A stretch of 12,456 bases of DNA, from NCBI GenBank assembly GCA_021781255.1, contig JAJXXG010000146.1:1-12456 (forward strand), read 5' to 3'. A model generated the notes under the pieces. It ran no database searches, was not told where the DNA came from, and worked only from the letters and a program-made list of their open reading frames with translations. Of this stretch, positions 1-10,900 are shown one piece after another (positions within the stretch are counted from its first letter, which is position 1; every line of letters starts with the position of its first letter). The translations under genes and the position numbers were made by a program. Origin of the DNA: Acidobacteriota bacterium. GTDB lineage: Bacteria > Acidobacteriota > Terriglobia > Terriglobales > Acidobacteriaceae.

Positions 1-38
1 CCGAGAAACTGGCCATGCTCGACCTGGTGGAGAACTGA
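1..38 (+). CDS. 3' end of an unidentified gene upstream of cheB (partial)
   Basis: The frame starting at base 3 reads EKLAMLDLVEN and stops with TGA at 36-38. Only about 11 residues are visible, too few to assign a family. The stop lies 3 nt before the cheB start, and the cheB ribosome binding site (GGAGA, 29-33) lies inside this gene, so the two are almost certainly co-transcribed. A chemotaxis partner such as CheW, CheA or a receptor would fit the context, but that is inference from position only. Confidence 0.55.
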   Translation, partial: EKLAMLDLVEN

Positions 39-41
39 ACC

Positions 42-1181
42 ATGCCCCACGTCCGGCGCGCCCGCATTCTCATCGTGGACGACTCCGCCGTTATGCGCAG
101 CCTGCTGCGCTCCGTCGTCATCGCCGACCCCGCGCTCGAAGTTGCAGGCACGGCCGCCGACGGGCAGTCGGCCCTGGGAATCCTCGACAGCCTCCGCCCC
201 GACCTCGTGGTGCTCGACGTGGAAATGCCCGTCATGGACGGCCTTGCCACCCTGAGACAGTTGCGCGCCCGCGGTCACACGATGCCGGTCGTCGTGTGCA
301 GCTCGCTCACCCAGCGCGGGGCCCGCGTCACCATCGAGGCCCTTGCCGGCGGCGCATCGGACTACGTCGCCAAGCCCGCCGGGCAGGACGGCCGCGAAGC
401 CGCCTTCCACGAGCTCTCCCGCGAGCTTCTTCCGCGCATTCACGCCCTTACCGGCGCAGTGCTGGAGCAGCCGGCCTTTTCTCCTGCTCCGCTTCAGACG
501 CCTGTGCCGTCCTGGCCTTCCGTAGTGCATGCTTCGCCGCTTGCGCAGCCCTGCTCGCCCGCGCCGTCAGTGCTCGTCATCGGCGTTTCCACCGGCGGCC
601 CGGCTGCCCTTGATGTCCTGCTGCCCACGCTGCCCGCAAGCTTTCCGATTCCCGTGCTGGTCGTCCAGCACATGCCCGAGTTATTCACCCGGCTGCTCGC
701 TGAGCGCCTCGCCGAGTGCTGCCGCATGCGCGTGCGCGAAGCTGCCCAGGGAGAAAGCGTATGCCCCGGTGTCATCCACATCGCCCGAGGCAACTGGCAC
801 CTTCAGGTGCATTCCGCCGCTCTGGCAGGCCAGCTCCCAACACTTCACCTCACCCAGACCCCGCCGGAGAACCACTGTCGCCCCGCCGTCGATGTGCTCT
901 TCCGCAGCGCCGCCGCCGCCTTCGGAGCAGGCGTTCTCGCCGTCGTTCTTACCGGCATGGGCTCAGACGGGCTCGCAGGATGTCGCGCCATCCGTGCGCA
1001 TGGCGGCGCCGTTCTTGCCCAGGATCGCCAAACCAGCACCATATGGGGCATGCCCGGCGCGGTCTCTGCCGCGGGCCTCGCGCATCGCGTGCTCCCGCTT
1101 CCCGCCATCGCGCCGGAGATTCTCCGGCTCGTCTCCCGAAGCCAGTGCGAAACCCGCGACACCCGCCAGGCGGTTGTGTAG
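42..1181 (+). CDS. cheB: Chemotaxis response regulator protein-glutamate methylesterase CheB
   Basis: CheB removes methyl groups from glutamates of chemoreceptors (and deamidates glutamines) in the cytoplasm, countering CheR during adaptation. At 379 aa it is slightly longer than the usual ~350. Residues 8-125 form a receiver domain: acidic pair D13-D14, phospho-acceptor D59 in LDVEMPVMDG, conserved S87/S88 and K111 in AKPAG. A proline- and serine-rich linker covers about 140-172. Residues 175-365 are the methylesterase domain, with S183 in GVSTGGP, H210 in VQHMP and D309 in GMGSDG matching the Ser-His-Asp triad of characterised CheB proteins. The ATG at 42 is preceded by GGAGA 8 nt upstream. 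cheR follows after 2 nt. Phosphorylation of D59 by CheA would activate the esterase, as known for the family. All key residues are present, so the protein should be functional. Confidence 0.96.
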   Translation: MPHVRRARILIVDDSAVMRSLLRSVVIADPALEVAGTAADGQSALGILDSLRPDLVVLDVEMPVMDGLATLRQLRARGHTMPVVVCSSLTQRGARVTIEALAGGASDYVAKPAGQDGREAAFHELSRELLPRIHALTGAVLEQPAFSPAPLQTPVPSWPSVVHASPLAQPCSPAPSVLVIGVSTGGPAALDVLLPTLPASFPIPVLVVQHMPELFTRLLAERLAECCRMRVREAAQGESVCPGVIHIARGNWHLQVHSAALAGQLPTLHLTQTPPENHCRPAVDVLFRSAAAAFGAGVLAVVLTGMGSDGLAGCRAIRAHGGAVLAQDRQTSTIWGMPGAVSAAGLAHRVLPLPAIAPEILRLVSRSQCETRDTRQAVV

Positions 1182-1183
1182 CC

Positions 1184-2011
1184 ATGTCCGCCGGCCCCAG
1201 CGCGGACTACGCCTTCCTGCGCCAGATCGTCTTCAACCACTCGCAGAATGTTCTCGACCCCTCGCGCGATTACCTCTTCGACGCGCGCCTCGCGCATCTG
1301 TTGCGCATCCATGGCATCAACAGCGTCCAGCGGCTTGTCCATCACCTGCGCCGCAGCAAAGATCCGCTCCTCGAGCGCGCCATCGCCGAAGCCATGACCA
1401 TCAACGAAACCAGCTTCTTCCGCGACAGCCGTCCCTTTGAGCTGCTGCGCTCCGAGTTGCTTCCCAGGCTCATCGAGGCGCGTCGCCTCTCGCGCAGCCT
1501 TCGCTTCTGGTCCGCCGCCTGCTCCACAGGCCAGGAGGCGTACAGCCTCGCGATCCTCATCCGCGAGCATTTCCCGCTTCTTGCCTCATGGAATATCCGC
1601 ATCGAAGGCACTGACATTGCCTCCGAGGTCGTCCAGCGCGCGCGCCAGGGCCTCTACCACCGCATTGAAATCAATCGTGGCCTGCCCGCACGCTTCATCG
1701 TTCGCTATTTCGACTGCCACGACGACGACTGGATTGCCAAACCCGAGTTGCGCCGTCTCTGCCACTTCCGGCAGGCCAACCTCTGCGTCGCGCCGCTCCC
1801 GTTCCATGAGCGCTTTGACGTCATCCTGCTGCGCAACGTCATGCTCTACTTCGCGCAGCAGGCGCGCCTCGCTCTGCTTGCTGGCATGCACGGCCTCCTC
1901 GCCCCTGACGGCGTCCTGCTTCTCGGCTCCGCCGAACAGCCCGCCGATCTTTCGCTCTGGACGCCCGTCCTCAGCGGCGGCAGCTGCTACTACCGTCCTC
2001 TCCCTGCCTGA
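1184..2011 (+). CDS. cheR: Chemotaxis protein methyltransferase CheR
   Basis: CheR is an S-adenosylmethionine-dependent methyltransferase that methylates receptor glutamates. The product is 275 aa, a normal length for CheR without extra TPR modules. The N-terminal helical domain (about 1-85) ends in TINETSFFR (72-80), a CheR signature. The SAM-binding domain has FWSAACSTGQEAYS (108-121), the GTDI segment (142-145) followed by the A-x-x-G-x-Y element, and LLRNVMLYF (215-223). The usual glycines after the first strand are replaced by AAC, a mild variation. The same frame is open back to 716, but ATG 1184 fits best: it lies 2 nt after the cheB stop, has AGGCGG 10 nt upstream, and begins where CheR homology begins. 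It forms an operon with cheB, so methylation and demethylation enzymes are made together. Confidence 0.95.
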   Translation: MSAGPSADYAFLRQIVFNHSQNVLDPSRDYLFDARLAHLLRIHGINSVQRLVHHLRRSKDPLLERAIAEAMTINETSFFRDSRPFELLRSELLPRLIEARRLSRSLRFWSAACSTGQEAYSLAILIREHFPLLASWNIRIEGTDIASEVVQRARQGLYHRIEINRGLPARFIVRYFDCHDDDWIAKPELRRLCHFRQANLCVAPLPFHERFDVILLRNVMLYFAQQARLALLAGMHGLLAPDGVLLLGSAEQPADLSLWTPVLSGGSCYYRPLPA

Positions 2012-2120
2012 AGTCAGCGGTGCAACCTTCGCAGCAGACATCGCCTCCCATAGCAAGCGGGTTATCTCTCACCGGCCTATTCCGTTACGATGGTAGACTC
2101 CGTAAGCCAACAAGGTGCTA

Positions 2121-3311
2121 ATGCGACTTTCCCAATGCCCAGTGCTCGCGCTGCTTTTGCTGCCCATGGTTATGACTGCTCAAGACGAAGCAGGCGCGCC
2201 CTACCAGGTCTTCGCCGGCGGCAGCTTTATTTCAAACTCCTTCAACGGAACCCCCGGTTCGCGCTCTCCCCTGACCGGATGGGATGCAGCCGTGGCCCTG
2301 CCAGCCTGGCGTCACCTGCGGTTCAAAGTCGATGTCTCTGGCTTCAACGGAAGCAACGTCGGCGCTCCGCAGCATGCGCTTGCCATCATGGGCGGAGCCC
2401 AGTACGAACACACGTTTAGGCGCGAGCTGCTCTACGCGCATGCGCTCTTCGGGGATATCGGCTTAAATCGCAACTGGGGCCCCGGAGGAGCCCCGGGCGG
2501 TACCGCATCCTTTGCCGTTCTGCTCGGTGGCGGCGTGGATACACCCATCAGCCGCCATCTCGCCATCCGCGTGGAAGCTAACATGCAGCACACGAATTTT
2601 GCCTTGATCCAGAGCCGATCTGATCCGGTGCCCTACCGCATTCCGGGCCTTCCCACATATTTCGCGCGCCTCACCACCGGCCTCGTCTGGACCCCACGTC
2701 TCGCGCATCCCGGCAGCCTTGCCAACGCGGCCATCCAAGGCGATCAGCCGCCGGTTGAAAGCGAGCTGATCTATGAAACCCTGAACTCCTTCGGTCACTT
2801 TCACATCTTCGCGTACTCGTGGTGGAGCTATCTCAACCTCGCAGGCGTTGAGTACGATCGCCATTCCTGGGGCAGGTTCATCGGAGCGGATATGGATTAC
2901 GTCGCCGAGATTCTTCCCGTTGTCATCCTGCGCCAACCAGCCAAAACAGACGTCTTCGGCGATCCATTGAGCACAGCCCACAAGACCGTTGCAGGCTTCG
3001 GCGTTTCGCCCATCGGCCTGCGCATGATCTGGCGCAATGGCAAGCGGTGGAAGCCCTATTACCTCATCAAGGCCGGCATGGTCGGATTCAACAAGAAGGC
3101 ATTGTCCGAATACGCTTCCTACGAGGACTTCACCCTGCAACAAAGCATCGGCATGCAATTTCGCTTGAATGACAGATGGGACATCCGCACCGGCATCAGC
3201 GACTTTCATTTCTCCAATGCGTTTCTGGTGCCCAACAATCCGGGCATCGACGAAATGTCCTACAACGTCGGCCTGTCCCTGCACCTCAAGCCCCGCCACA
3301 TCCGCTTCTGA
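2121..3311 (+). CDS. Outer-membrane protein: OmpA-like barrel fused to a PagL-like lipid A deacylase barrel
   Basis: The product is 396 aa with an N-terminal signal peptide: MRLSQ, a hydrophobic core to about residue 18, and likely cleavage after A20 (MTA/QDE). Residues 26-195 alternate as in a small OmpA-like beta-barrel and end with FARLTTGLVWTP. Residues 215-396 resemble the PagL / acyloxyacyl hydrolase family, with GFGVSPIGLRMIW (292-304) and H363-F-S365-N366-A367 followed by PNNPGIDE (371-378). In Pseudomonas PagL a His-Ser-Glu triad removes the 3-O-acyl chain of lipid A. Here H363 and S365 are in place, and the Glu position (H+14) is D377, followed by E378. The terminal residue is Phe, as in many outer-membrane barrels. 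Position 2115 offers an in-frame GTG, but ATG 2121 is preferred because AAGGTG lies just upstream. The gene lies 109 nt after cheR and is probably a separate unit. The barrel and secretion calls are firm; the enzyme activity is inferred. Confidence 0.78.
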   Translation: MRLSQCPVLALLLLPMVMTAQDEAGAPYQVFAGGSFISNSFNGTPGSRSPLTGWDAAVALPAWRHLRFKVDVSGFNGSNVGAPQHALAIMGGAQYEHTFRRELLYAHALFGDIGLNRNWGPGGAPGGTASFAVLLGGGVDTPISRHLAIRVEANMQHTNFALIQSRSDPVPYRIPGLPTYFARLTTGLVWTPRLAHPGSLANAAIQGDQPPVESELIYETLNSFGHFHIFAYSWWSYLNLAGVEYDRHSWGRFIGADMDYVAEILPVVILRQPAKTDVFGDPLSTAHKTVAGFGVSPIGLRMIWRNGKRWKPYYLIKAGMVGFNKKALSEYASYEDFTLQQSIGMQFRLNDRWDIRTGISDFHFSNAFLVPNNPGIDEMSYNVGLSLHLKPRHIRF

Positions 3312-3425
3312 GCACCGCGTCAAGCCGGCAGGGCAGGTTTGCGTGCAAGCACACAATAGAATCCGCCTGCTCTTCGATGCGCCATCAAATTTTTTTCTGG
3401 GGAAAGCCCAAGATCCACCTGATGC

Positions 3426-3444
3426 CTGGTGCCGGGAGGGGGGG
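3426..3444 (-). repeat. Displaced copy of the tRNA-Leu 3' end (att-like direct repeat, distal)
   Basis: CTGGTGCCGGGAGGGGGGG is identical to 4854-4872. Read on the minus strand it gives part of the T-arm, the acceptor strand TCCCGGC, the discriminator A and CCA. Beyond the 19 nt, identity resumes after a 1-nt gap (CGAA against TCGAA) and then stops. No other tRNA arms are present here, so this is a fragment and not a second tRNA gene. Confidence 0.8.
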
Positions 3445-3490
3445 CGAATTTCTAAGCCCCACTGATTCTATGTAAGTTATTCATTTTTCA

Positions 3491-3529
3491 ATACCGCTCG
3501 AATCGCAGGAACAGCACGAATCGCGGTAT
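3491..3529. repeat. Short repeat cluster next to the left att-like copy
   Basis: ATACCGC (3491-3497) and GCGGTAT (3523-3529) form a 7-bp inverted repeat with a 25-nt spacer. Inside it CGAATCGC occurs twice in direct orientation (3499-3506 and 3517-3524, 18 nt apart). This lies 47-85 nt inside the island from the att-like copy. Such repeats could be arm-type recombinase or repressor binding sites, but the repeats are short and chance is possible. Confidence 0.4.
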
Positions 3530-3531
3530 CC

Positions 3532-3554
3532 ACACACGTATTACACACACGGAC
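3532..3554 (+). repeat. 23-nt direct repeat, left copy
   Basis: This stretch begins ACACACGTATT and ends CACACGGAC, and is identical over 23 nt to 4787-4809. Three more bases upstream match with one difference (TCC against TCT). The two copies flank both island genes in the same orientation. Confidence 0.85.
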
Positions 3555-3563
3555 TTTTCTTTC

Positions 3564-3592
3564 TTGTGGATTTTTGAAGCCATGAATATGAG
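3564..3592 (+). promoter_or_regulatory. Possible sigma-70-type promoter for the DUF4145-like gene
   Basis: TTGTGG (3564-3569) and TATGAG (3587-3592) are separated by exactly 17 nt, and the -10 box ends 38 nt before the ATG at 3631. The boxes match the consensus at only about 3 and 4 of 6 positions, so this is a weak call. Part of the left 23-nt repeat lies just upstream and could hold a regulator site. Confidence 0.25.
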
Positions 3593-3630
3593 CATGTATC
3601 ATTCCCCCGAAGGGCGGAGGGAAGTCACAT

Positions 3631-4284
3631 ATGGAAATTGAGTTGATGTTATCTGAGAAAGTCAAAGCTTTCATCGAGACAGTTGATCATGATTTCAGAT
3701 TGACAAAGCAGGAGCGGGCTGAATCTGCACGCGCGCGCGAACTCATTAACGTCATAGTGGACCACTTGGTCAAAGCACGAGAGACGATTATGGACAACAA
3801 ATTGGATTTCCTCGAAAAATGTATTGAAAACGAGCGTGAGATTATTGAGGAGTTTCTTGATGAACGCTACACGCGGGATGTCATCGATGAAGTTTCCGGA
3901 TATGTCCAGCGCACCTTGGAGCTATCTCAAATGAAATGCGCGACGATCCCGTCCAAAATTACGAACGGGTACCTACGTGAGGCGGTGCGCACCTATATCC
4001 TCGGACTGCCACAGGCCTCGGTTGCACTCAGTCGCGCTGCTGTCGAACAAGCTCTAAAGGAGGGGATGGGCTATCAATCGACTAGGACATTTGTCGCGAT
4101 GAACGATTTATTAGTCGAGGCCCAAACTGGCGGCGTGATTGACAAAGCGCATCAACAGCTTGCTCGCGAAGTAGCTGATGCCGCTGATGACGTCCTGCAC
4201 GAAAAGCCAACAACTCTCTCTAATGCCCTAGATGTCTTAGTTAAGATGCGTGGAGTTCTCCAGTTCATATACTCATGGGAATAG
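3631..4284 (+). CDS. DUF4145-like helical protein carried by the island
   Basis: The product is 217 aa, soluble, with no signal peptide or membrane segment. Residues 1-100 are charged and helical with a coiled-coil look, centred on the run of Glu and Lys at about 48-78. Residues 113-217 resemble the DUF4145 domain: an amphipathic helix with AVRTYILGLPQASVALSRAA, then EQALKEGMG, a GVIDKAHQQLA segment, the DDVLHE stretch where relatives carry a conserved His after an Asn/Asp-rich turn, and a final helix ending in LQFIYSW. DUF4145 domains are known alone, or fused to type I restriction subunits and other proteins of defence islands; their biochemical role is not established. No catalytic residues can be named. 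The start is set by ATG 3631 with GGAGG (3616-3620) 10 nt upstream; an in-frame ATG at 3646 is less well placed. Codon use is more A/T-rich than the neighbours, consistent with horizontal transfer. The family call is from pattern memory. Confidence 0.75.
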   Translation: MEIELMLSEKVKAFIETVDHDFRLTKQERAESARARELINVIVDHLVKARETIMDNKLDFLEKCIENEREIIEEFLDERYTRDVIDEVSGYVQRTLELSQMKCATIPSKITNGYLREAVRTYILGLPQASVALSRAAVEQALKEGMGYQSTRTFVAMNDLLVEAQTGGVIDKAHQQLAREVADAADDVLHEKPTTLSNALDVLVKMRGVLQFIYSWE

Positions 4285-4449
4285 TTCACGGCAGCTTGCA
4301 ATTCCCGGCCAATGTGGTTTAGTGAATTTGTGATTCGTTGATGGGGATAGCTTGGCGGTGGCGACTAATCTGCTAGCGTGAAATGACTCAGGAACCGCCC
4401 CGTAAATTTGGTCGCCCTTTCCCATCGGCGAATCATTCGTCGTCCTTTG

Positions 4450-4460
4450 AAAACTTGGGG
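4450..4460 (+). repeat. 11-nt inverted repeat, left arm
   Basis: AAAACTTGGGG is the exact reverse complement of CCCCAAGTTTT at 4729-4739. The pair encloses the whole 80-aa reading frame, with its left arm 17 nt before the ATG and its right arm 8 nt after the stop. It could be a terminal repeat of a tiny insertion unit or a chance match. Confidence 0.55.
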
Positions 4461-4477
4461 TACAAAACGAATCATCT

Positions 4478-4720
4478 ATGCACTATCGAAATGGCAGAGA
4501 AGCGCAGAACGGAGACAAGATTGTTAAGTTGAACGGAGGCACCGTCGTATCGTTTGGCGTTCTTCATAGCGCGACGCCTGGGAATGATTATTGCAATGGC
4601 AATATCGCGCCAGTTCAGCCGACCAATGATGGGGCTTGCATGGTGGACTGCCTTCATGTCGATGACTTGGCGGCAATCCTCGCGGAAAAAGGTTTAGATA
4701 AGCGGCCAGAAGGAAAATAA
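4478..4720 (+). CDS. Unrecognised 80-aa protein in the island
   Basis: I do not recognise a named family. The frame encodes 80 aa from the only available ATG; an in-frame stop lies at 4448-4450. The first half (NGREAQNGDKIVKLNGGTVV) has the Gly-Asp-turn pattern of a small beta-barrel such as an SH3/KOW-like fold. It is followed by PGNDYCNGNIAP and DCLHVDDLAAILAEKG, with two Cys (C39 and C58 or close) and a His-Asp-Asp cluster ahead of a short helix. There is no signal peptide or membrane segment. No strong ribosome binding site precedes it; the nearest purine run is GGGG at 4457-4460, 17 nt away. The gene lies 193 nt after the DUF4145-like gene in the same orientation, and is bracketed by an 11-nt inverted repeat. 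The ordered composition and intact frame favour a real gene, but short length keeps confidence moderate. Confidence 0.6.
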   Translation: MHYRNGREAQNGDKIVKLNGGTVVSFGVLHSATPGNDYCNGNIAPVQPTNDGACMVDCLHVDDLAAILAEKGLDKRPEGK

Positions 4721-4728
4721 ACTAATCG

Positions 4729-4739
4729 CCCCAAGTTTT
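4729..4739 (+). repeat. 11-nt inverted repeat, right arm
   Basis: CCCCAAGTTTT pairs with 4450-4460. It lies 8 nt after the stop of the 80-aa gene. Confidence 0.55.
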
Positions 4740-4786
4740 TAGTGAATGAAGTAAGCAAACCATTATCTATAAGATGAAGGTGGTCT

Positions 4787-4809
4787 ACACACGTATTACA
4801 CACACGGAC
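4787..4809 (+). repeat. 23-nt direct repeat, right copy
   Basis: Identical over 23 nt to 3532-3554 and in the same orientation. It lies 44 nt inside the island from the tRNA-borne att-like copy, against 87 nt for the left repeat. It could be an arm-type recombinase site or the scar of an internal duplication. Confidence 0.85.
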
Positions 4810-4853
4810 ACTTCGAGTATTCAGCTAATTTGTTTTGAATGAATTACATATTG

Positions 4854-4872
4854 CTGGTGCCGGGAGGGGGGG
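4854..4872 (-). repeat. tRNA-borne att-like direct repeat (proximal)
   Basis: This is the 19-nt stretch at the tRNA-Leu 3' end (CCA, discriminator, acceptor strand and part of the T-arm) that recurs at 3426-3444. It marks the tRNA-side boundary of the island. Confidence 0.8.
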
Positions 4873-4942
4873 TCGAACCCCCATGACCGCAAGGGTCGGC
4901 GGATTTTGAGTCCGCTGCGTCTGCCAGTTCCGCCATCCCGGC
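4855..4942 (-). tRNA. tRNA-Leu (anticodon CAA), CCA encoded
   Basis: Read on the minus strand this folds as a class II tRNA of 85 nt plus an encoded CCA. The acceptor stem is GCCGGGA with TCCCGGC, discriminator A (4858) and CCA (4857-4855). The anticodon stem GCGGA/TCCGC closes the loop CTCAAAA, giving anticodon CAA, which reads UUG leucine codons. A long variable arm has GACC/GGTC pairing, and the T-arm is GGGGG-TTCGACC-CCCCC. The gene is intact: the island joins exactly at its 3' end and restores the sequence. It lies 59 nt downstream of the minus-strand acyltransferase fusion gene. Confidence 0.97.
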
Positions 4943-5001: not shown

Positions 5002-7794
5002 TCATCCCTTCAGCAGCCGTTCCACCTCCGCATGCAGCCGCGCTGTAATCGACGCCTCGCTCTCTTCGGGCGCAAACCGCACCGGCCTGCCCACCCGCAC
5101 CGTGATGGTCCCCGCGCGGAACCAGTGCTTCTCGCCCCTCTTCAGCGGGCCCAGGCCCACAATCGCCACCGGCAACACCGCCGTCCCTGACTGCTTCGTC
5201 AATATCCCGATCCCCGACCGAAACTGCGCCAGCTCACCCGTCGCCGAACGTGTTCCCTCGGGAAACACCAGCACGTGATACCCCCGGTCCAGCGCCTCGC
5301 CCGCATGCTGAAAGCTCCGCTGGAACTGCCGCCGCCGGGGCAACGGAAACACGTTGTACAGTGCCGTCAGAAGAAACCAGATCAGCGGCCCTTGCGGCAG
5401 AAACCGCCTTGCCCCCGACTCCCAGTTCGTATTGCGAAAATGCCGGTAGTCATCCAGCATCTCCCCGGACATGGCTGCCGCAACCCACCGCCGCACCGGC
5501 CCCGGCAGCGCATACTCCACCAGCGGCCCGTCCATTGTCGTCACGTGATTGCAGATCATCAGCATCGGCTCGTCAATCATCAGCCCCTCGGCCAGTTCAA
5601 CCTTGGGATGCGCCATCAGCCACACCAGCGGCCTTGCCACGCATTCCTGAAACACCACCCGCACCCACGCCACCGGCCTCCACCATGGCCAATGCGGATA
5701 GATGTGTTTCGCCGCCGGTTCCGCCGCCGCGCCAATTTCCATCCCGGCCCTCGCTGGCAGTTGCGCCATCCGTTTCGCTTCTCTCTCCGCAGGCGGCTCA
5801 AATCCTGGCCGCACCTCAAGTGCCTCTGCCGCTCCGCTCTCCTCCCTCGCAGGCGCGGCAGTCTGCCCCATCGCCTCGCCGGAAACCAGTTTTCGCAGCT
5901 CGCCCAGCGTCTGCGCGCCTTCCAGAAGCCCGTTCTCCGGCGCTCTTCCCAGTCTTGCTTCAATCGCCGCTGCCAGTTGCACGCGCCCCAGGCTGTCCAG
6001 GTGCAGGTCTTCTGCCAGCCGCAGTTCGTCGCCGGTTCCCGCGGGCGCTTCTTCCGTGATCTCCGCAATCAGCGCCGTCAGCCAATCCCCGCCCATCGAC
6101 GCTTGCTCCGCCCCGCCCGCGCGTCTTTGAGCCTCTCTCGCGGCCACCCATTCCGCCACCACCTTGCGCCGCACCTTGCCAGTCGAGGTCCGTGGCAAAT
6201 CCGGCTCAGGCCACAGTGCCCATCGCCGCACGCGCTGGAACTCCGCCAGTCGAGCGTTCGCCCGTTCAAGTACCGCCGGGGCCTGCGTCTCTGCGCCGCG
6301 CAGTGCAAGCACCGCAAACGGCTCCGGCCCGCCTGCCGTCTCCACGGCAACTACCGCGCATGCCGCCACCTCCGGCTCCTGCTCCAGAGCCGCCTCCACG
6401 TCTTCGGGGTGAACATTCACTCCCGCCGCCGTCACAATCGTCTCGCTCTTCCGTCCCAGAAAGCGCAGCTCGCCCGTCGCCTGTGCCTCCGCCAGGTCGC
6501 CCGTCGCCAGCCAATCATCCTCGCGCTGCCGCATCTCGCCGCCTTGCCATGTCGCGCTGCTGATCATCGGCCCGCGCACCAGCACCTCGCCGTCTGGACC
6601 CAGCTTCACCTCGCGCCCCGCCAGCGGCTTGCCCAACGTTCCCCGCGCAACGTGGAAGGGATGGTTCAGCGTAATCAGCGCCGTCGTCTCCGTCATCCCG
6701 TAGCCCTGCACCACCACAAAACCCAGAGCATTCCAGAACTGCTCCAGCGGCCCCGCCAGCGCCCCGCCACCCGAGATCAGCGCCCAGAACTTCAGCCCGA
6801 ATGCCCGATGTACATCGCGAAAGCGCCACCACCGCTCCCACGCCTTCAGGCCCTTCGCCGCGGCCACGCGCTCCGCCAACCCCGGTACGCTCGTCTCCAG
6901 GTGCGTCTTCAGCAGGGCCATCACGCGCGGAACAGCCGCAAGCACGCTGATGCGCTCCCGCCGGATCGTCTCCATCAGCCGCGGCGCCACCAAATGGCTC
7001 TCAAAGTGAACCTCCGCCGCAAATATCGGCGGAATCCAAAGCCCCATCGTCTGCCCGAACACATGGCTCAGCGGCAGCGTATGCAGGAACCGCAGCGGAT
7101 GCACCACGCGCTCGTAGCGCAGGTAGGGCTGCGCTCCCTGTTCAATCGGCCCCACGCTCGCCAGCACGTTCCCGTGCGTATGGACAATGCCCTTGGGCTC
7201 CCCCGTCGTCCCCGAAGTGAAAAGAATCTGCAACTGCGTCTCGCGCGAAAGCCCCGCCACGGGCCCCGCCTCTTCAGTGGGCAGGGCAGCAGCCCAGTCC
7301 TCAAACGCCAGTTGCGGAAAATCGAGGTGCGGATGCACCTGACCCTGGTCCTGCGTTGCGGGCAGGGAAGTCTCGCTGGCCTCTGAGCTGGGTGCCCCAT
7401 CCTTTCCGCGGTCTTGTGCGGAAAGGGTGGGATTCAAAGCACGCAACTGCCTCAGCAGCAGAGCGTCGCCCACCACCAGCTTCGGCCGCACGTCCGCCGC
7501 CACCCGCGCCGCAAACTCCGCGCTCCCATACGCATCCAGCGGAACCGCCAGCACCCCGCGCAGCATGCAGCCATAGAACGCGCCAATCCACTCCGCGCCA
7601 TTCTCCGCCCAAAGCACCACACGGTCGCCCTGCCGAATGCCGCGCGCCTCCAGCAGCGCAGCAAACCGCCCCGCCAGCCTCGCCAGTTCGGCATAGGTCG
7701 TCGCCCGCCGCCGGTTGCCCACCATGCGCACCACGGCAATCCCGCGCCCATATCGGCGAAAGTCGTCCAGCAGAGTTGCCAGATGTTCCCGCAT
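5002..7794 (-). CDS. Acyl-activating AMP ligase - acyl carrier domain - PlsC acyltransferase fusion
   Basis: From ATG 7794 the product is 930 aa with three domains. Residues 1-560 are an adenylate-forming ligase: FTSGTTGEPKG (192-202), GYGMTET (364-370), TGD (431-433), GRKSETIVTAAGVNVHPEDVE (447-467) and catalytic K540 in PRTSTGK. Residues 570-640 are an acyl carrier domain whose LHLDSLG places the phosphopantetheine serine at S601. Residues 695-930 are a glycerolipid acyltransferase with H750-x4-D755 (NHVTTMD) and FPEGTRS (844-850). The likely role is to activate a fatty acid, load it onto the fused carrier and pass it to a lysophospholipid or other acceptor at the membrane. The parts recall E. 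coli Aas, but the domain order is reversed and a carrier is added. A GTG at 7836 would add 14 residues; ATG 7794 is preferred because GGGGA lies 4 nt upstream. A hairpin repeat adds residues near 126-150. The substrate is not visible from sequence. Confidence 0.9.
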   Translation of the reverse strand: MREHLATLLDDFRRYGRGIAVVRMVGNRRRATTYAELARLAGRFAALLEARGIRQGDRVVLWAENGAEWIGAFYGCMLRGVLAVPLDAYGSAEFAARVAADVRPKLVVGDALLLRQLRALNPTLSAQDRGKDGAPSSEASETSLPATQDQGQVHPHLDFPQLAFEDWAAALPTEEAGPVAGLSRETQLQILFTSGTTGEPKGIVHTHGNVLASVGPIEQGAQPYLRYERVVHPLRFLHTLPLSHVFGQTMGLWIPPIFAAEVHFESHLVAPRLMETIRRERISVLAAVPRVMALLKTHLETSVPGLAERVAAAKGLKAWERWWRFRDVHRAFGLKFWALISGGGALAGPLEQFWNALGFVVVQGYGMTETTALITLNHPFHVARGTLGKPLAGREVKLGPDGEVLVRGPMISSATWQGGEMRQREDDWLATGDLAEAQATGELRFLGRKSETIVTAAGVNVHPEDVEAALEQEPEVAACAVVAVETAGGPEPFAVLALRGAETQAPAVLERANARLAEFQRVRRWALWPEPDLPRTSTGKVRRKVVAEWVAAREAQRRAGGAEQASMGGDWLTALIAEITEEAPAGTGDELRLAEDLHLDSLGRVQLAAAIEARLGRAPENGLLEGAQTLGELRKLVSGEAMGQTAAPAREESGAAEALEVRPGFEPPAEREAKRMAQLPARAGMEIGAAAEPAAKHIYPHWPWWRPVAWVRVVFQECVARPLVWLMAHPKVELAEGLMIDEPMLMICNHVTTMDGPLVEYALPGPVRRWVAAAMSGEMLDDYRHFRNTNWESGARRFLPQGPLIWFLLTALYNVFPLPRRRQFQRSFQHAGEALDRGYHVLVFPEGTRSATGELAQFRSGIGILTKQSGTAVLPVAIVGLGPLKRGEKHWFRAGTITVRVGRPVRFAPEESEASITARLHAEVERLLKG
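7391..7434 (+). repeat. GGTGCCCCA hairpin repeat, copy 1 (inside the ligase fusion gene)
   Basis: GGTGC leads into CCCATCCTTTCCGC (7396-7409), an 8-nt loop (7410-7417) and GCGGAAAGGGTGGG (7418-7431). The stem is 14 bp with a single G-T pair. It lies antisense to the host gene and is read through in frame, coding for a polar loop (about residues 126-150) between early strands of the ligase domain. Confidence 0.8.
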
Positions 7795-7905
7795 CGCATC
7801 CCCATGGTACAGCGAGACTTGCCCCAACGTCCGCACACAGCCGGGTGAGCCGCCCTTCTCTTCGCTTCCTATTCGCCACTCTCCGCGTTATGCTCATGCT
7901 CAGGC
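7795..7905. promoter_or_regulatory. Divergent intergenic region between the ligase fusion and lhr
   Basis: Only 111 nt separate the two divergent start codons, 69 nt if the GTG at 7836 is used. Promoters for both genes should lie here or inside the opposing gene. I see no convincing -35/-10 pair or operator on either strand. The lhr start has only AGG immediately upstream. Confidence 0.35.
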
Positions 7906-10900
7906 ATGCCCCCGCACCCGCCCAACCCGGACCCGGCTTCCGACCCCCTCGCCTGCTTCCATCCCGTCACGGCAGAGTGGTTCCGCGCCGTATTTGACGC
8001 GCCCACCGCGCCGCAGCGCCTCGGCTGGCCCGTCATCGCCCGCGGCGAAAGCGCACTCATCCTCGCCCCCACCGGCACAGGAAAAACCCTCACCGCCTTC
8101 CTCTGGTGCCTCGACCGTCTCATGCTCCACAATCTGCCCGGCGACAAGGTGCCCCACATCTACGGGCGCTCTGGGCCCGGAGATGTGGGAGACCACGCGC
8201 CTCCAACCGCCAAATCTGGTTGCCGCATCGTCTACGTCTCCCCCCTCAAGGCCCTCGCCGTTGATGTCGAGCGCAACCTGCGTTCTCCTCTCGCCGGCAT
8301 CGCCAACATGGCCCGCCGCCGCGGCGTCCCGTTCCACGAGCCGCTCATCAGCGTCCGCACCGGAGACACCCCACAGCGCGAGCGCGCACGCTTCCGCCGC
8401 CAGCCCGCCGACATCCTCATCACCACCCCCGAGTCGCTCTACCTCCTGCTCACCTCCCAGGCTGCCGACGCCCTCCGCACCGTCGACACCGTCATCATCG
8501 ACGAGATCCACGCCCTCGTTCCCACCAAGCGCGGAGCTCACCTCGCCCTCTCGCTGGAGCGCCTCGAAGCCCTCACAAAAAAGCCAATCCAGCGCATCGG
8601 CCTCTCCGCAACCCAGCGCCCATTGGAAGAAGTCGCTCGCTTTCTCGGGGGTGTGGAAATCTCTGTGGAGCCAGCCTACGGAAAGAACGATGCCACATTC
8701 CATGGCAATTCAAAATCAACAGGTTCGGGTGCAAATCTTCAAGTTGAACTGGAAGAATTTCTGTCACCTTCCGCAACGCCCGGCCCGCACACCCAGGACT
8801 CCGCACCCGCTGCCTCTCTCGCTCCCGATCTCACCCCCTGGTCTTCCGATACCTCCCAGACACTGCCCCTCATCTACCGTCCTGTCACTGTAGTTAACGC
8901 AAGCCACCCCAAACAGTTAAAGCTGAAAATTGAAGTTCCAGTTGAAGATATGGCGCGCCTCACCGCCATGGAAGAATTGCCCAGCGGCCCCGCCTCGCAG
9001 ACACCGCGCCGCGTCTCCATCTGGAACGCCATCCACCCACGCCTCCTCGAGCTCATCCGCGAGCGCAATTCCACCATCCTCTTCGTCAACAGCCGCCAGG
9101 TCGCCGAGCGCCTCGCCGGAGCGCTCAACGATCTCGCCGGTGATGCGATCGCCCGCGCCCACCACGGCTCCCTCGCCGCCCATCAGCGCTCCGTCATCGA
9201 AGAGCAGCTCAAGGCCGGCCAGATCAAGGCCCTCTGCGCCACCTCCACACTCGAACTCGGCATCGACATGGGCGCCGTCGATCTCGTCATCCAGATCGAG
9301 GCCCCACCCTCCGTCGCCAGCGGCATGCAGCGCATCGGCCGCGCCGGCCACAGCGTGGACGCCGTCAGCGAAGGCGTCTTTTTCCCCAAATACCGCGCCG
9401 ACCTCGTCGCCTGCGCCGCCGTCACCCGCGCCATGCACGAGGGACACATCGAGTCCACCCGCTACCCCCGCAACCCACTCGACGTCCTCGCCCAGCAGCT
9501 CGTCGCCATCGTCGCCTCCGCCCGCCCGGCGAACCCTCCCGTCCACAAGCGCGGAATCAAAACCCTGGGTGCCCCATCCTTGCGACGTTTTTCAGTCGCA
9601 AGGGTGGGAGACCAGGAACCTCAACCGACCTCCGTTTACCAGGCGGAAGAGACTGAACCCAGGCCGGGTGCCCCAGAGCATGCCCTGAGCTTGTCGAAGG
9701 GTCTCGCTTTTGAGACCTGGAATAGCACCGCCAACCCCGCCAACCCCGGTGAAGTCCCCCGGCCCGAAGTCTCCGTCGACGCGCTCTACGACCTCGTCTG
9801 CCGTGCCGCGCCCTTCGCCAGTCTTTCCCGCGCCTCCTTCGAGGGCGTACTCGATCTGCTCAGCGGCCGCTATCCCTCCGACGAGTTCGCCGAGCTCCGC
9901 CCGCGCCTCACCTGGGACCGCGTTCGCAACGTCGTCACCGCCCGCGACGGCGCAGCCCGCCTCGCCATCCTCAATGCCGGAACCATCCCCGACCGCGGCC
10001 TCTACGGCGTCTTCCTCGCCCACACTGAGGGCAAATCCATCCGCGTCGGCGAGCTCGACGAGGAGATGGTCTTCGAGTCCCATCCCAACGAAACCTTTAT
10101 CCTCGGTGCCTCCACCTGGCGCATTGAGGACATCACCCACGACCGCGTGCTCGTCACCCCCGCCCCCGGCGAGCCCGGCAAAATGCCCTTCTGGAAGGGC
10201 GATGGTCCCGGCCGCCCGCTCGAATTCGGCCGCCGCATCGGCGCCCTGGTCCGCGAGCTGCGCGGCCTTCCCAAACCCGCCGCTCTCACCCGCCTCGTCG
10301 CCGAGCACGACCTCGACCCCAACGCCGCCGAAAACCTGCTCCAGTTCCTCGCCGACCAGGCAGAAGCCACCGGCCAGGTCCCCGACGACCGCACCATTGT
10401 CATCGAGCGCTGCCGCGACGAGTTGGGCGACTGGCGGGTCTGCGTGCTCACGCCCTTCGGCAGCCGCATCCACATTCCCTGGGCCATGGCCGTCAGCGCC
10501 CGCATCCGCGCCGCCGGCGGCCCCGAGGTCGAAACCCTCTGGAGCGATGACGGCTTCGTCCTCCGCTTTCCTGACACCGACGAGCCGCCCGACCCCGACT
10601 GGTTCCAGATTGACCCCGCCGAAGCCACGGCGCTTGTGCTGCGCCAGCTCGGTTCCTCTGCCCTCTTCGCCGGCCGCTTTCGCGAGGCCGCGGGCCGCGC
10701 GCTCCTCCTGCCCCGCCGACGCGCAGACCAGCGCTCGCCCCTGTGGCAGCTCCGCAAGCGTTCCTACGACCTGCTCAGCGTCGCCTCCCGCTACCCATCC
10801 TTTCCTTTGCTCTTGGAGGCCTACCGCGAGTGCCTGCGCGACGTCTTCGACATGCCAGCCCTGCTGGAAACGCTGCGCGCGATCCAGCAGCGCCGTCTCC

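Follow-up and report, generated by a model that had tools for sequence, protein, structure and literature searches.

The locus described here raises the question of how a short stretch of DNA without a recombinase gene came to lie between two copies of the 3′ end of a tRNA gene. The DNA analysed (referred to as the window) comprises 12,456 nucleotides of contig JAJXXG010000146.1 from an Acidobacteriota bacterium (assembly GCA_021781255.1). An initial annotation had reported an exact copy of the tRNA-Leu(CAA) 3′ end 1,428 bp from the gene, AT-richer DNA between the copies, and an island with two small genes and no recombinase, all of which was borne out. The same 19-mer (CTGGTGCCGGGAGGGGGGG) is present at both ends of the island (start-to-start distance 1,428 bp; Table 1), and when the 4.85-kb left flank was simulated 300 times with a Markov-1 model, the longest chance match to the 3′ 31-mer of the tRNA was 13 nt. 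The island has a GC content of 0.470, as against 0.636 in the left flank and 0.675 in the right flank, and holds two clear genes. No recombinase was found in the window, either with a home-made integrase hidden Markov model (HMM; built from 19 open reading frames (ORFs) taken from PF00589 hits and applied to ORFs of at least 70 amino acids) or by tblastn with five integrase sequences. As in tDNA-integrated islands, an intact tRNA gene is accompanied by a displaced, exact 3′-end fragment in direct orientation; the crossover lies somewhere within the 19-nt core. On the evidence given below, the island is likely to belong to a family of miniature elements that have attachment (att) sites and cargo but no integrase, and that are integrated in trans by a tyrosine integrase.

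Direct repeats that had been overlooked in the initial annotation lie just inside both cores (3529–3559 and 4784–4814) and have an identical 23-mer in common. They resemble split integrase arm sites and, in a circular form, would flank the core on both sides. In the lambda integrase model, arm-type sites flank the core on either side.

Elements with the same ends were found at other loci (loci and genomes are designated by L and G numbers). The smaller of the two genes, which encodes a protein of 80 amino acids, is present in four of 300 genomes (family group of G001, the genome of L001), and two of these four hold it in islands of 968 and 873 bp (L113/L117 and L114/L118, respectively), the ends of which resemble those of the window island and the 21-nt cores of which copy the 3′ end of the transfer-messenger RNA (tmRNA) gene. 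Two profiles were used for the search: R1, built on sequence alone from five left ends, and R2, built from four right-end sequences. Matches to R1 at E≤0.01 were obtained in 150 of 398 genomes; the weakest of them may be tRNA ends with little else, because R1 includes the tRNA-end core. Stretches around high-scoring R1 matches (40) were fetched and combined with the five training loci to give 45 loci, which contained 48 R1 matches. For 21 elements a second core could be identified, and 15 of these carry family arms at each end: the window, L117, L118, L196–L200, L204, L212, L214, L216, L219, L223, and L233. R2 recovered the right end of all but two of them (13 of 15; the window, L117, and L118 had served to train it), and the right ends of L223 and L233 were recognised by their arms.

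The 15 elements are 705–1,428 bp long (median 923 bp), with exact cores of 19–25 nt. The left arm is 106–109 nt from the core throughout, and the right arm begins 64–68 nt ahead of the core in 14 of the elements and 43 nt ahead of it in L223. The GC content is lower than that of the flanks in all 15 (Wilcoxon, p 6e-5), and no integrase was found by HMM or tblastn inside any of them. A sixteenth element (L281, 866 bp) is located at tRNA-Leu. The target gene was called by ARAGORN in nine of the 15 and also in L281, and was otherwise judged from the core; targets include tmRNA (L117, L197, L198, L199, and L219), tRNA-Ser (L204, L212, and L223), and tRNA-Leu (the window), the core of L216 being the tRNA-Leu core of the window itself. 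A family right end was also found at tRNA-Phe (L284). The suggestion that the island is a miniature element with a borrowed integrase is thus supported by 15 like elements without an integrase at tRNA and tmRNA ends in other genomes; the enzyme itself would come from outside. In viral contigs, R1 gave no match among 26 fetched with the ACAC pattern described below and scores of 7.7–14.3 bits for four fetched with a left-end piece, and a strict GTAC pattern gave none.

The arms read like either ACACACGTATTACACACACGG or GTACGTATTGAGTACACGG, each half-repeat showing the same change, and by eye the type (ACAC or GTAC) is identical at the two ends in 16 of 16 elements. ACAC arms are found in the window, L117, L118, L196, L198, L199, L200, L214, L216, and L281, and GTAC arms in L197, L204, L212, L219, L223, and L233. 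Complete agreement among the first 15 elements has a probability of 1/5005 under random pairing, and is also expected from common descent of whole elements. The target alone does not dictate the arm type, because tmRNA genes carry either type (ACAC in L117, L198, and L199; GTAC in L197 and L219). A search of the 398 genomes yielded 17 hits to the ACAC pattern, spread over 14 genomes (six for the backward control), and 44 to the GTAC pattern, spread over 38 (26 for its control), so many GTAC hits are due to chance. No integrase accompanied the ACAC hits in the fetched stretches. With an earlier ACAC pattern that included a CT prefix, only G230 and G273 had been recovered.

Seven of the 15 elements, and L281, have a cargo slot in which one short gene is enclosed by an inverted repeat (GAAAACTTGGGG and CCCCAAGTTTTC, at most two mismatches); the downstream half alone, at the same tolerance, occurred in 102 of 3000 shuffled mini-elements. 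In L219 the pairing of the two halves is kept at one position by a two-sided change (CTTGGAG/CTCCAAG) and lost at another. The slot looks exchangeable, because the slot genes differ among the eight elements. The 80-amino-acid gene occupies it in the window, L117, and L118, and Tad2-like genes (PF11195, cut-off 25 bits) occupy it in L219 (E 1.3e-25, 90.2 bits) and L281 (E 2.1e-19, 70.3 bits). The slot gene of L204 (92 amino acids) is Acb2-like, PF24729 being matched by seven of 17 members of its alignment (best E 1.5e-4), that of L216 is a weak relative of phrog_6978 (E 1e-4), and that of L223 (66 amino acids) had no match. Among the eight slot genes there are thus three that are related, more or less certainly, to known sponges of immune signals, going by the family names. 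When the two slot half-patterns were searched for in viral contigs, one occurred in a single contig and the other in none. Viral contig L341 (IMGVR_UViG_3300031671_000549, 1653–1880) has the same slot about 600 bp past an integrase gene, with an ORF of 58 amino acids (by eye).

The 80-amino-acid protein of the window gave matches at E≤1e-3 for 5656 of 5658 candidates. Of 399 IMG/VR stretches that matched, 373 encode it. In the alignment of the window protein with 33 of the 120 homologues listed, 32 columns are invariant. The window gene and the phage copies are 77–86% identical as protein and about 71–79% as DNA (main aligned stretch); selection on the protein, though not on the window copy alone, is indicated because protein identity exceeds DNA identity. 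No Pfam family was matched at E≤1, and tblastn gave no match in plasmids and phages. The 80-amino-acid gene as a mobile unit in its own right was also considered, and was rejected from the best 80 of the 373 IMG/VR loci: none shows both inverted-repeat halves (one half is present in L071), none has a two-sided ACACACG motif (GTAC arms were not looked for there), and no exact repeat of at least 14 nt was found at a called tRNA.

The abundance of the 80-amino-acid gene in IMG/VR contigs, together with the integrase and phage-like ORFs (by eye) of the only viral contig with a slot, would fit an ultra-small phage satellite, that is, an element that a helper phage packages as well as integrates. 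We consider this unlikely, though it deserves more weight than the decayed remnant and the fortuitous repeat discussed below. Only the DUF4145 gene and the 80-amino-acid gene stand out in the window island; no integrase, regulator, or packaging gene of its own was found, and the window shows no replication, capsid, or packaging gene (cos and pac sites were not looked for). A length of 1 kb is, moreover, far below a phage headful.

A link between the family ends and a tyrosine integrase is suggested by L239, where tmRNA-type cores enclose an element of 15.9 kb, the left end of which matches R1 (E 9e-10) and the geometry of which is like that of the mini-elements. A PF00589 integrase of 391 amino acids is encoded 110 bp from its right core, and its arms read GGTACA at both ends, not ACAC or GTACG. 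Next to this integrase, L239 also has an ORF of 1006 amino acids (5048–8068) with an RVT_1 score of 28.9 bits (cut-off 29.6), perhaps a defence reverse transcriptase. A relative of the L239 integrase (517 amino acids, 54% identity over 307 amino acids) lies 70 bp from the tmRNA gene in L161, and L341 carries a relative of 38% identity in addition to its slot; the att site of L341 is out of sight because the contig starts at the integrase. The L341 integrase, when searched for in viral contigs, returned only itself and one relative of 25%. In L118, L196, and L221, tblastn located integrase N-terminal starts outside the left core, at a distance of 66–101 bp, as if these mini-elements stood in tandem with integrase-bearing elements. 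L224 and L227 have additional integrase matches, which are located outside their elements. With one or a few small genes, often of phage type, and no integrase of their own, the mini-elements probably borrow that enzyme from larger neighbours.

Relics of the L239 integrase family were found by tblastn inside L211 (72% over 145 amino acids) and, in L230, immediately within the left end; both had been overlooked by the integrase HMM. In L162 (3329–5760), a family right end is adjoined by a C-terminal relic of a tyrosine recombinase and a large ORF that by eye resembles a serine recombinase, after which comes a segment of 4.8 kb with an ORF that looks helicase-like by eye. These three relics, and the six of 21 elements that lack the family right end, speak for a decayed remnant, in which deletion removed the middle of a larger, integrase-bearing island together with its integrase and left a piece that is now fixed. 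This possibility, already raised in the initial annotation, fits less well and is improbable: decayed relatives do exist, but 16 elements keep exact cores, near-fixed arm distances, and matching arm types, and the excess of protein over DNA identity in the 80-amino-acid gene signals selection, even if not on the window copy alone. That ordinary genes happen to lie beside a tRNA with a fortuitous repeat, as the mere two clear genes and the missing recombinase would allow, is hardly credible given an exact 19-nt repeat beyond chance and the same ends at other tRNA and tmRNA genes.

Mobilisation of integrase-less mini-elements in trans would proceed as follows. The circular form would present right arm, core, and left arm as attP, to be recognised by a tyrosine integrase that a different element of that cell supplies, and the mini-element would excise and integrate much as a miniature inverted-repeat transposable element (MITE) uses a transposase. 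The likeliest helpers would be integrases of the L239/L161/L341 family on larger elements at the same tRNA and tmRNA ends. With less confidence, the slot may spread phage-type counter-defence genes, and movement from cell to cell may depend on a helper phage or on DNA uptake. A wider proposal, which we advance tentatively and as a real possibility rather than an expectation, is that a widespread class of att-plus-cargo elements of about 1 kb forms the tyrosine-integrase counterpart of MITEs, with no mobility gene of any kind, two co-varying arm specificities tied to different helper integrases, several tRNA and tmRNA targets, and an inverted-repeat slot through which counter-defence genes of phages circulate singly between phages and islands, among them Tad2-like and Acb2-like genes and the 80-amino-acid candidate.

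A number of results weigh against mobilisation in trans and have to be set beside it. Neither an excision event nor a circle or junction read was observed. Among the arm-pattern hits in the 398 genomes and in the fetched stretches, no integrase-bearing element with exactly the arms of the mini-elements was found; the helper is therefore inferred. At 24 of the 45 loci there is no countable element: L164 was dropped for a core with three mismatches, L227 for a length of 124 bp by hand, and 22 others for want of a second core in the fetched stretch. The right end lacks family arms in six of the 21 elements (L162, L201, L211, L224, L226, and L228), and the GTAC hits give only four same-contig pairs, 582–750 bp apart. 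Departures from a perfect slot repeat occur in the window, L219, and L223 (one mismatch each in the window and L223), the L204 slot protein itself has no PF24729 match, and the predicted fold of the 80-amino-acid protein (predicted local distance difference test score 70) had no match at E≤1e-3. Finally, a clean empty site was not found: window positions 1–3425 do not lie beside the tRNA in the nearest relatives available (L001 and L009), and the left flanks of the G273, G219, and G312 elements led to no empty site in 31, 30, and 31 genomes of the same genus, respectively. The sole long flank match (G367, 68%) is without tmRNA or core in the examined stretch.

In neither L001 nor L009 was an R1 left end found at tRNA-Leu(CAA). 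In L001 the flank to the right of the tRNA is present at 88% identity, and in L009 the tRNA is about 6 kb away from that flank. The R2 matches there are weak (22.4 and 16.5 bits) and include the tRNA end itself; they were read as tRNA, a worn right end in L001 being possible.

Several known systems share part of this anatomy. Described phage satellites (phage-inducible chromosomal islands (PICI), phage-inducible chromosomal minimalist islands (PICMI), tycheposons, and others) are larger and usually have their own integrase or regulators; the mini-elements are like them in their presumed helper dependence and phage-type cargo, and differ in having neither an integrase nor regulators. Cis-mobilizable elements (CIMEs) are flanked by attL and attR, lack an integrase, and are described as deletion derivatives of integrative and conjugative elements (ICEs) that are moved in tandem with an ICE. 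The mini-elements likewise have putative attL and attR sites and no recombinase gene; they form a recurrent family of about 1 kb with ends of its own in many genomes. MITEs resemble them in being small and lacking a recombinase and, as is presumed for the mini-elements, keep the ends recognised by a helper's enzyme, but are moved by transposases and, according to the available text of a 2024 review of hitchhiking elements (PMC11389934), are without protein-coding genes, whereas the mini-elements have tRNA/tmRNA cores, paired arms, and small genes. That text counts MITEs and clusters of attC sites lacking integron integrases (CALINs) as intragenomic hitchers and mentions no tyrosine-integrase counterpart. 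CALINs and integron cassettes share integrase-less cargo and exchangeable single genes (same text of PMC11389934), whereas the putative recombination site of the mini-elements is the core at a tRNA or tmRNA gene. Tandem islands at the tmRNA gene (ssrA) with 20-bp repeats are known from Dehalococcoides (PMC3146451), where movement relies on a serine-recombinase module that 16 of the islands encode.

The tDNA islands of the Islander database have in common with the mini-elements a tRNA/tmRNA 3′-end target and a displaced fragment. The available text on that database (PMC4383910) demands an integrase gene within the island; the window island has none, and mini-elements are excluded by design because of this demand. 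Island finders of this kind therefore skip them. A literature search gave no title or abstract start describing such mini-elements, preprints and most subscription papers lying outside its scope, and we regard the family as a new form within the known kind of non-autonomous integrative elements. If its members are mobilised in trans, few integrative elements that carry genes would be smaller, and tyrosine-integrase attP sites would prove open to the parasitism that MITEs practise on transposon ends. The slot genes would then also be a source of short, strongly conserved candidate immunity inhibitors, starting with the 80-amino-acid protein.

Table 1. Features of the integrated island and its target gene in the window.
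Feature	Position	Strand	Basis or remark
Left core, displaced tRNA 3′-end copy	3426..3444		Exact 19-mer CTGGTGCCGGGAGGGGGGG
Inserted unit, 1,428 bp	3445..4872 (equally 3426–4853)		Exact 19-nt direct repeat, GC step, anatomy common to 15 other elements
Family left end	3428..3563	+	Profile R1, 98.9 bits, by construction (window among the five R1 training sequences); alignments A1 and A3
Left arm-type repeat, ACAC type	3532..3554	+	ACACACGTATTACACACACGGAC; putative integrase binding
217-amino-acid DUF4145-domain protein	3631..4284	+	PF13643, E 7.7e-5
Slot inverted repeat, upstream half	4449..4460	+	Around the 80-amino-acid gene; missed in the initial annotation
80-amino-acid slot gene	4478..4720	+	Very conserved; many homologues, also in IMG/VR contigs
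Family right end	4727..4880	+	Profile R2, 107.7 bits (window among the four R2 training sequences)
Slot inverted repeat, downstream half	4729..4740	+	Around the 80-amino-acid gene
Right arm-type repeat	4787..4809	+	Identical 23-mer; putative integrase binding
Right core at tRNA-Leu(CAA) 3′ end	4854..4872		Same 19-mer CTGGTGCCGGGAGGGGGGG
tRNA-Leu(CAA), target gene	4855..4942	−	ARAGORN and Rfam RF00005; right core is its 3′ end

The other gene of the window island encodes a protein of 217 amino acids, the DUF4145 score of which (23.1 bits) is exactly at the Pfam cut-off. Matches at E≤1e-3 were obtained for 130 of 830 candidates, and no relative was found in the 82 viral stretches examined. A short ORF (MTQEPP..., 4383–4532) lies upstream of the slot in the window; its start is also present in L117, and it may encode a leader peptide.

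A second, larger class of integrase-poor islands, separate from the mini-elements, was observed in L236 (G009:C23), where tandem tmRNA-type cores at 891, 5489, and 10827 are 4.6 and 5.3 kb apart and accompanied by TTGTACG arms; the islands between them contain host-like ORFs and no integrase by HMM. Arms of this class also occur in L245 (8.4 kb) and in L244/L250 (about 24.7 kb). Between the left core and the tmRNA gene in L164, L201, and L211 there is a GIY-YIG-like ORF (by eye), which is probably a native neighbour of the tmRNA gene. In L226, Fur-like and catalase-peroxidase-like ORFs (by eye) are located between tmRNA-type cores at about 9270–12562.

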